64,000 nucleotides of DNA from Chrysomallon squamiferum (Eukaryota > Mollusca > Gastropoda > Neomphalida > Peltospiridae), in assembly GCA_012295275.1 (NCBI GenBank), contig CM022666.1:1897116-1961115 (forward strand), written 5' to 3'. Under the pieces are notes generated by a model. That model did not search any database. It was given only the letters and a program-made list of their open reading frames with translations, and had not been told where the DNA came from. The position numbers and the translations under genes are program-made. Of this stretch, positions 32,801-35,800 are shown piece after piece. Positions within the stretch are counted from its first letter, which is position 1. Each line of letters starts with the position of its first letter.

Positions 32801-35800
32801 ACATTTTTTTTTTCCTGAATAAACTATTGAAAGTTTTTATTGTTTTATCTTTGTTAAATGCTGTAACTACTATTATTTCGTTAAAATTATTATTATTGTT
32901 ATTATTATACACATTATGATTATAATTATTTTTTTTTTTTCCTGTTATTATCATTAATATTGTTACTAAATTTTAAAACTGTTTTTATTATTGTTGTTGT
33001 TGTTATATACATTATTATTATTAATATTAATATTATCATTGATACTATTATTATCATTGATATCATCATTCTTCTTCTTATTATTATTATTACTTTTATT
33101 ATTATTGTTGTTGTAGTAGTTATTATTATTATTATTATTATTATTATCATTATTATTATCATTTTTACTATTATTACTATCATTACTATTACTATTATTA
33201 TTACTATTACTGTTATTATTACTATTACTATTTATACTTACAAAGGTCTGGCAGGCTCAGAGGCTGGCAGTGTTCCATCACGGTTGATTTCATCGTCTTC
33301 CTCATCTTCATCGTCACTGTTCTCGTCCTCCATGATCACTGTGCGTGCCTGCCGCTCTTCTGCTCCCATCTTCGTCAAGTGAGCTGCCAGTCTCTCCAGG
33401 TCCTGAAAAACAATAAAAAACAAATGAGCTGCCAGTCTCTCCAGATCCTGAAAAACAAACAAACAAATGAGCTGCCAGTCTCTCCAGATCCTGAAAAACA
33501 AACAAACAAATGAGCTGCCAGTCTCTCCAGATCCTGAAAAACAATAAAAAACAAATGAGCTGCCAGTCTCTCCAGATCCTGAAAAACAAACAAAACAAAT
33601 GAGCTGCCAGTCTCTCCAGATCCTGAAAAACAAACAAACAAATGAGCTGCCAGTCTCTCCAGATCCTGAAAAACAATAAAAAACAAATGAGCTGCCAGTC
33701 TCTCCAGATCCTGAAAAACAATAAAAAAAACAAGTGAGCTGCCAGTCTCTCCAGATCCTGAAAAACAATAAAAAAACAAGTGAGCTGCCAGTCTCTCCAG
33801 ATCCTGAAAAACAATAAAAAACAAATGAGCTGCCAGTCTCTCCAGATCCTGAAAAACAATGAAAAACAAATGAGCTGCCAGTCTCTCCAGATCCTGAAAA
33901 ACAATCAAATAAATAATAAAAAAATAAAAGTAATTATTAAAACAATATTTATTATTCCATCTAAGAACCTTCCAATAAAGAGATAATATATCTTACATTT
34001 TTACAGTTACCCAAAATTTCTTCAGTACGTCATTTAAAAATATTAACATACTAAATTTTAACATTCTAAAAAGAAGATTAATAAGATTAATACTGAATTC
34101 ATTGTCATAAAAGTCAGACTGGAAAACGTATTTTAAACAGAGAGATAAAATTATCTAAAGTACTTCAGTAAATTTGTTTAAATAAAAAGAAATAATTACC
34201 TCTGGTTTGTTCACTCCTCCAAACATGCCTGGAGCTCTCTGGTCTGACTGCATGGGGTGTCCAGCACCAGAACTAGGGTTCTTAGGGTCAGGCATCACTA
34301 ATAAAACAAGTTAATCATTAGTTTAATTAATTTTACAAAAACTGTAAAATATAAAAGAAGCTACATATACAAGAAATCAAAAACTGGTCTCAAGCTATTA
34401 TTTAGCACCATTTCAGAACATCTGTTAAGTATCAAAATATGTTAATAAATAAATAAATGAATTGAAAAAACAAAAATATTAAATTTGGGCCCACACTATT
34501 TTTGAATTAATTTATGACAAGGTTTCTCTCATTCCAGTTAAATGAGAAAACTGGAAAGTTTTTGTTTTTGATTATTTAGTATAGTGAAACAATGAGATAT
34601 ATCTCAATTAACCTGCACAATTTTTAGGGGTTTATTGGGGTTTTTTTTGGTGAAATTAAATAACATAGCATCTAACACATGAAAAATAAAATAAAAATGT
34701 ATCAACAATTCCAATCGTTAACTGAAAATGACTACAGATGTACTGGTTTCCCCAGGTTCGATATGACGATGTTCTAATCGAGGTAACACTTAAAAGCTCT
34801 TCAGACCAACCTATCAGTCTCGACTGCACAGGAAACTGTTTTGGTATTTGTTCATGAACCACGGGATGACTGGCTTGCGGATTGTAATGACTAGACGGAG
34901 GACGATGTGGCTGAGGCTGTGGCTGGTGTAGTTGCGGAGGCTGAGGCTGCTGATGTGATGATTGTGGCCTCGGATGGTGCTGACGTTGACGTTCTTGTTG
35001 CCGTTGCTGTGCATGGCGTGCCTGGTTACTGCTTCGCGATTCTCTCTCCTGGATTTGTTGGAAGTTTCTCTTGAGTGTTGATTCACCAGGAATTTGTAAA
35101 ATAGAGCTGAAAAAAAAACACATTTCCAAAATCAGTGTTAAATCATTTTAACAGTCATAAGAATACCAAAATTATAAAACAGAACTAAAAAGAAAAAAAG
35201 AAAAAAGATTTCTAACTAGATATAATGAACACTAAAAGACAGTAAAATAAAAGAATTTAAAAAAAAAAAGACCGGTACAAAAAAACATTTACAAACAGAT
35301 TTTACCAATAAATTAAAAATATTTGAAAACAACAACAAAAACAAAAACCTAATGAAAATATAAAATAGCTGAAAAAAGTAATAAAAGCTTGTAAAAATAA
35401 AAAAACAAAATTTTTCTGAATTCTGAATGTTCCTAGTTCCATGAAACATTTTAACATATAAGACTCCAGTATCTAACAAACTCATTCTAAATAACACTAG
35501 AAACTGTATTTTGTAAAAAGAAAAAAATGTTTAACCTTGGTTATATCACTTTTACCAATGATGTAACGAGTATAAATTTTAAGAACAACTTCAATGTTTA
35601 ATACAAGGTTTTATCTCTCACAGCTAAACAAAATATAAAATATATTATACCTTGGCTCTCCTGGTATTGTTTCTTCATCCTCTTCATTGTCACTTCCTTC
35701 CCATTCATACTCAGTGTCATGATCATCTCCTGAAGAATTAGAAAACACATCAGTATAAATGAGCAAGTGAACGAACAACCAGAACCCAAATAAAAGAAAA

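Follow-up and report, generated by a model that had tools for sequence, protein, structure and literature searches.

Which acceptor is used when the same 3' splice site stands before one exon twelve times in a row, and how might such a row have arisen? Both questions are raised by a stretch of 64,000 nucleotides from the scaly-foot snail Chrysomallon squamiferum (GCA_012295275.1, contig CM022666.1, positions 1,897,116 to 1,961,115), here called the window. The locus is a natural test of acceptor choice: twelve near-identical acceptors lie in a conserved signalling gene, and eleven of them have one adenosine at a normal branch distance. It also suggests a route by which coding sequence may become a branch site. 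Most work on how splicing chooses between equal acceptors has, to our knowledge, used artificial duplications with few copies, and the classic duplicated-acceptor experiments with globin genes reportedly gave conflicting rules.

The host gene is a conserved kinase

The minus strand of the window carries a kinase gene of the misshapen/MINK1/TNIK/MAP4K4 type. Its first coding exon lies at 53973-53917 (minus strand), the next twelve were found from 52981 to 36414, and further exons follow down to 29762. The CNH domain lies outside the window, ending at C2:1856683, and the matches to the exons encoding it are nearly gapless. Among the 120 of 1006 matches listed, the nearest protein is misshapen-like kinase 1 of Gigantopelta aegis (P0023), a snail reported to be confamilial with C. 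squamiferum (PMC7895826). Identity of the coding sequence to this protein is 95% (485/508 residues), and the protein junction between exons 16 and 17 is unbroken in the comparison. When an Elysia-resembling protein (P0006) was compared with the genome, all 12 scored matches fell at the host gene locus; the search scores the best candidates only, and the single-copy call rests on those. Judged by these comparisons, the host gene is apparently a well-preserved, single-copy misshapen/MINK1/TNIK/MAP4K4 orthologue. Since the coding sequence and the downstream exons are preserved, a productive mRNA must still form.

Exon 16 (34200..34297, minus strand; VMPDPKNP...GGVNKPE) ends at the donor GAG/GTAATT. 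Exon 17 (33242..33402, minus strand) is 161 nt long and ends in ...SEPARPL at the donor TTT/GTAAGT; the number 17, already used in the original prediction for this DNA, is right if exons are counted from the first coding one. Intron 16 (33403..34199, minus strand) measures 797 nt, the array included, if the last acceptor is used. An ATT-type microsatellite of roughly 350 bp (window 32886-33232) starts directly past the exon 17 donor; repeats flank exon 17.

Eleven copies of an intron-exon junction

Directly upstream of exon 17's own acceptor on the minus strand lie eleven head-to-tail copies of 43-47 bp (33406..33896), each consisting of CAG, a 27-nt copy from exon 17 and a T-rich tract of 13-17 nt. 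TRF reported the array at 33376-33909 with a period of 45, 12.0 copies and 95% matches, and found a second, higher-order period of 132 bp. The pattern of CAG followed by GAYCTGGAGAGACTGGCAGCTCAYTTG occurs 12 times, once at the start of exon 17 (33402) and eleven times in extra copies whose first exon-like bases are 33893, 33848, 33803, 33757, 33710, 33665, 33622, 33578, 33533, 33490 and 33447. In sense order, the units are 45, 45, 46, 47, 45, 43, 44, 45, 43, 43 and 45 bp long. The exon-derived 27-mer has 12 matches in the entire 404.6-Mb genome (404,604,130 bases, 22 contigs), all inside the array, and the reversed-pattern control has 0 matches across the same 404.6 Mb, which places the array far beyond chance. 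The eleven extra acceptors with 27 nt of exon, as originally predicted, are thus borne out by TRF, pattern matching and the genome count, and the predicted unit length of 43-47 bp agrees with the measured spacing.

With head-to-tail units in the range of about 10-100 bp and several copies, the array has the structure of a minisatellite (VNTR); with 12 CAG acceptors, each with 27 nt of exon, it is also a splice-junction-spanning repeat of the CBS type. An Rfam scan of the window gave 0 matches.

The eleven units fall into six types, present in 4, 3, 1, 1, 1 and 1 copies. Exon 17 has GAC where all 11 copies have GAT, and CAC where nine of the 11 have CAT (the other two have CAC); both differences are synonymous. 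Variation among the units amounts to one site in the exon part and a few tract changes, which show no sign of constraint and are too few for a constraint test. The near-invariant exon parts would fit a recent expansion from a seed copy slightly unlike the present exon 17. By eye, ATTTG is common to the upstream flank and the unit end, a hint of an origin by slippage that is weak in T-rich DNA.

Acceptor strength and candidate branch adenosines

Acceptors were scored with a small 20-nt matrix built from the 15 other acceptors of the host gene. The 12 array acceptors score 10.5-14.1. Exon 17's own, 3'-most acceptor (CAG at 33403..33405, minus strand) scores 13.3, the one 45 nt upstream of it (the -45 acceptor; CAG at 33448..33450, minus strand) 14.1, and the 5'-most (CAG at 33894..33896, minus strand) has the lowest score, 10.5. 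The 15 other acceptors score 6.9-15.6, which is optimistic since they built the matrix, and -2.4 to 13.5 when each is left out in turn. Among the 3306 AG sites on the same strand, the array acceptors rank in the top 0.15-1.12%. By this measure all 12 sites would pass for true acceptors, the scores ranking sites without proving their use.

A yUnAy match lies 8-42 nt upstream in 13 of the 15 other host-gene introns tested, and the motif by itself says little. Under the AG-exclusion-zone rule, as described in PMC1431707, the branch adenosine lies between the acceptor and the first AG upstream of it; AGs less than 12-15 nt from the branch can be bypassed, giving about 15 nt of slack. The minimum branch distance of 15 nt was our choice, and an A at 12 nt was set aside as too close. 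On this basis, 11 of the 12 acceptors have exactly one A at least 15 nt upstream within the AG-free zone, and in each it belongs to CTCAY, in the Ala-His codons of the preceding copy, at a distance of 21-25 nt from the exon-like start. Four acceptors (33622, 33578, 33490 and 33447) have no other A in the zone, and seven of the 11 CTCAY-preceded acceptors hold a further A at 12 nt. The 15-nt slack beyond the zone (TGGAGAGACTGGCAG) contains further adenosines, with no yUnAy match listed there. The candidate branch site of exon 17's own acceptor is CTCAT in the Ala-His codons of the last copy (33424..33428, minus strand), its A at 33425 lying 23 nt before the exon. With a single qualifying A per zone, an acceptor of this kind, if used, very likely takes its branch site from the Ala-His codons of the copy before it.

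The 5'-most acceptor (first exon-like base 33893) follows ordinary native intron instead of a copy, and its AG-free zone contains 18 adenosines at a distance of at least 15 nt. The original prediction that each unit is a self-contained acceptor with a CTCAY module consequently holds for 11 of the 12 sites and fails at the 5'-most. Its proposal that the branch site of one acceptor is made of the previous copy's codons agrees with the sole qualifying A in those 11 zones and is tempered by the extra adenosines at 12 nt (seven of 11) and just beyond the zone. The distance from CTCAY to CAG, predicted as 20-22 nt, proved to be 16-20 nt.

The AG-free zones span 24-28 nt at 11 of the 12 acceptors and 67 nt at the 5'-most, versus 22-174 nt in the 15 other introns. 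As the array zones are not unusually long, assignment to the class of exons with distant branch points was rejected. A NAGNAG tandem acceptor was likewise rejected, the acceptors being spaced 43-47 nt apart and not 3 nt.

Reading frames from each acceptor

Use of the extra acceptors would add 45, 88, 131, 176, 220, 263, 308, 355, 401, 446 or 491 nt to exon 17. The array itself has 0 stops in all three frames. Only the -45 acceptor (first exon-like base 33447), one of the eleven, stays in frame, adding 15 residues; the other ten lead to a premature stop in exon 17. Seven of the eleven extra acceptors would run into the stop at 33375..33377 (minus strand), with 133 nt of exon 17 still to follow, and three into that at 33314..33316 (minus strand), with 72 nt to follow. 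Nonsense-mediated decay follows a 50-55 nt rule, and both stops lie beyond it. These frames depend on the T-run lengths as assembled, which can be misread in nanopore assemblies, as this one probably is; were more of the units 45 bp long in reality, the number of in-frame acceptors would rise.

Which acceptor is productive?

The explanation that we favour, and hold to be probable, is that the array is a splice-junction minisatellite, a product of local duplication whose last acceptor is the productive one, and not a selected device. A minisatellite may have been seeded across the junction of intron 16 and exon 17 and have grown to 12 acceptors as a side effect of tandem duplication and unequal copying at the locus. 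Every copy would supply an acceptor and a T-rich tract, while the adenosine at which the following acceptor branches (cuCAy) would come from the copy's exon part. The acceptor most likely used for productive splicing would then be exon 17's own, 3'-most one, the 11 copies being removed with the intron. The branch point would most likely be the A in CUCAU of the last copy, so that the branch site would have moved from the native intron into copied codons. The upstream acceptors would be silent or give minor RNAs, most of them containing a stop.

Preservation of the gene downstream suggests that the main site is exon 17's own acceptor or the -45 one. A human parallel points to the former: in the CBS insertion 844ins68, a duplicated intron 7/exon 8 junction, the more distal of the two copies is described as strongly favoured (PMC2630376), which favours excision of the intron with all 11 copies in it. 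The sites duplicated by 844ins68 are called donors in the text of PMC2630376, and the title of the study cited there has 3' splice site.

Several observations weigh against use of the last acceptor. The 12 acceptors are about equal and the upstream ones are transcribed first, so the sequence forces no winner. The 5'-most acceptor has 18 adenosines at a distance of at least 15 nt, whereas the others have one each. There is an A at 12 nt in seven of the 11 zones and more adenosines within 15 nt past them, and the frame argument leans on the lengths of T runs, read from an assembly that is probably nanopore-based.

A neutral origin, the most likely one in our view, is favoured by a second junction duplication in the host gene. 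There, the donor of exon 13 (36414) has a single further copy at 36268, 146 nt downstream, and both donors score 8.4. The junction copies (36427-36300 and 36281-36153, minus strand) measure 128 and 129 bp, with 123 of 129 aligned columns identical, and the duplication, with a period of 146 bp, covers the donor together with the last 14 nt of the exon and some 114 nt of the intron. The second donor, if used, would add 146 nt and then reach a stop.

Complex minisatellites are also common in the sampled stretches, which lie outside the window, total 190 kb and hold 9 arrays. They were defined by entropy of at least 1.7, GC of at least 0.20, at least 3 copies and a period of at least 20, overlaps being merged; the cut was chosen after the table had been seen, and three of the 19 sampled stretches adjoin the window. 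Extrapolated, this is about one array per 21 kb, so that some would be expected on splice junctions. Individual repeats include a 39-bp minisatellite of 5.1 copies in a downstream intron of the kinase gene (L010:5584-5781), whose plus-strand unit holds TTTGTAAGT. A 306-bp unit in three copies with 98% matches reaches the edge of a sampled stretch (L026:1-904). Within the window, a 76-bp unit in 2.4 copies (49380-49566) lies in the intron that separates coding exons 2 and 3 and is, by its position, not exon-derived.

Other readings of the array

It is possible, though rather unlikely, that splicing uses both the -45 acceptor and the last one. The former would yield an isoform whose linker between the kinase and CNH domains is longer by 15 residues (DLERLAAHL a second time, and FFIVFQ). 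The -45 acceptor is the sole extra one in frame, it outscores exon 17's own (14.1 versus 13.3), and the only A in its AG-free zone lies at 21 nt. Exactly at this junction, Haliotis rufescens P0025 has an extra NDQE and Pecten maximus P0039 an extra LAWQQCL, as would come from alternative acceptors or small exon shifts, which suggests that the linker tolerates added length. However, the exon 17 motif occurs twice in 0 of the 136 proteins fetched, none of them known to be from C. squamiferum; it was found once in 100, and the pattern was unmatched in 36. A search with the 231-aa reading frame of the array, covering 869 word-sharing candidates of 0.55-1.75 times 231 aa, likewise gave none with E of at most 0.001. 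The matches listed, 120 of 1006 in one search, contain neither a transcript nor a protein recognisable as the snail's own. Two gene models among the relatives differ here in the other direction, that of Lottia gigantea (P0047) being without the start of its exon 17 equivalent and that of Pomacea canaliculata (P0053) without the exon 16-17 equivalent altogether; each may reflect alternative splicing or a model error.

About equally doubtful is a role of the array in dosage, in which upstream acceptors would be used at a set rate, the resulting stop-containing RNAs would go to nonsense-mediated decay, and copy number would tune the output of the kinase. Such a device could draw on the 10 of 11 extra acceptors whose stops lie beyond the decay rule, on the near-equal scores of the 12 acceptors and on GGAGA, a splicing enhancer motif and here a putative enhancer, which each of the 11 units carries. 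Against it, minisatellites arise without selection, and the variation among units shows no sign of constraint, though the changes are too few for a test.

Use of the 5'-most acceptor, as if splicing took the first AG after the native branch site, with the array exonised, seems very improbable: this acceptor keeps the native intron with its 18 adenosines upstream, and all three frames are open throughout the array, but the added 491 nt would run into a stop in exon 17, breaking a gene with well-preserved downstream exons, and it scores lowest of the 12. An assembly artefact, in which copy number or unit lengths are wrong, is just as hard to credit. The likely source assembly is described as built from nanopore reads, with Racon and Pilon used for correction (PMC7142155). 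Data of this type have most trouble with homopolymers inside a 45-bp repeat, and heterozygosity is 1.38%; yet six distinct unit types and a 132-bp higher-order period are unlike simple stutter, and a 0.5-kb array is short relative to long reads.

Comparison with known systems

The original prediction knew of no described minisatellite of this kind in the gene family, and the novelty that this implied was overstated, as junction-crossing repeats and duplications have been described in other genes (PMC2630376, PMC4974935, PMC2812944). Like the array, CBS 844ins68 duplicates an acceptor with adjoining exon so that near-identical sites compete; it has two acceptors, 68 bp and a known RNA outcome, while the array has twelve acceptors and units of 43-47 bp. 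A second CBS variant, the 31-bp VNTR c.1444_1467+7, is given as having 16-21 copies, its unit by name being 24 coding and 7 intron nt (PMC2630376). It too is a multi-copy minisatellite with a splice site in every unit, but what it repeats is a donor, without a branch site, and it varies between people, whereas the snail array repeats an acceptor.

As described for potato, an intron gain in an RdRp gene (PMC4974935) likewise began with a duplication across an intron's 3' end into the exon that follows, with tract, AG and putative branch site. There, a single duplication gave rise to a new intron through a cryptic GTAAG donor; an intron of this type inside the array seems unlikely, since only weak donors are present (26 GT sites, the best scoring 2.5, with 15 of 16 real donors scoring higher and one lower). 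Minisatellites in human segmental duplications also resemble the array, with units around 30 bp long at the borders of exons, altered splicing and 27 intron modifications; they average four units and led to novel introns, and a dozen complete acceptors was not found in the available text of that report (PMC2812944). Intron minisatellites of an earthworm metallothionein gene (PMC12783039) and the CTNS intron VNTR (PMC5628181) were set aside as precedents, the splice site not being repeated in either as they are described.

An equal case of twelve copied acceptors was not found in the open-licence literature searched, and wider print may hold one. A repeat that crosses a splice junction is thus of a kind already known; what sets the snail array apart is its run of twelve complete acceptors, with a putative branch site in codons of the preceding copy. 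For RNA from this locus, the scaly-foot snail transcriptome is stated to be in Dryad, and the raw sequencing data are all under PRJNA523462 (PMC7142155).
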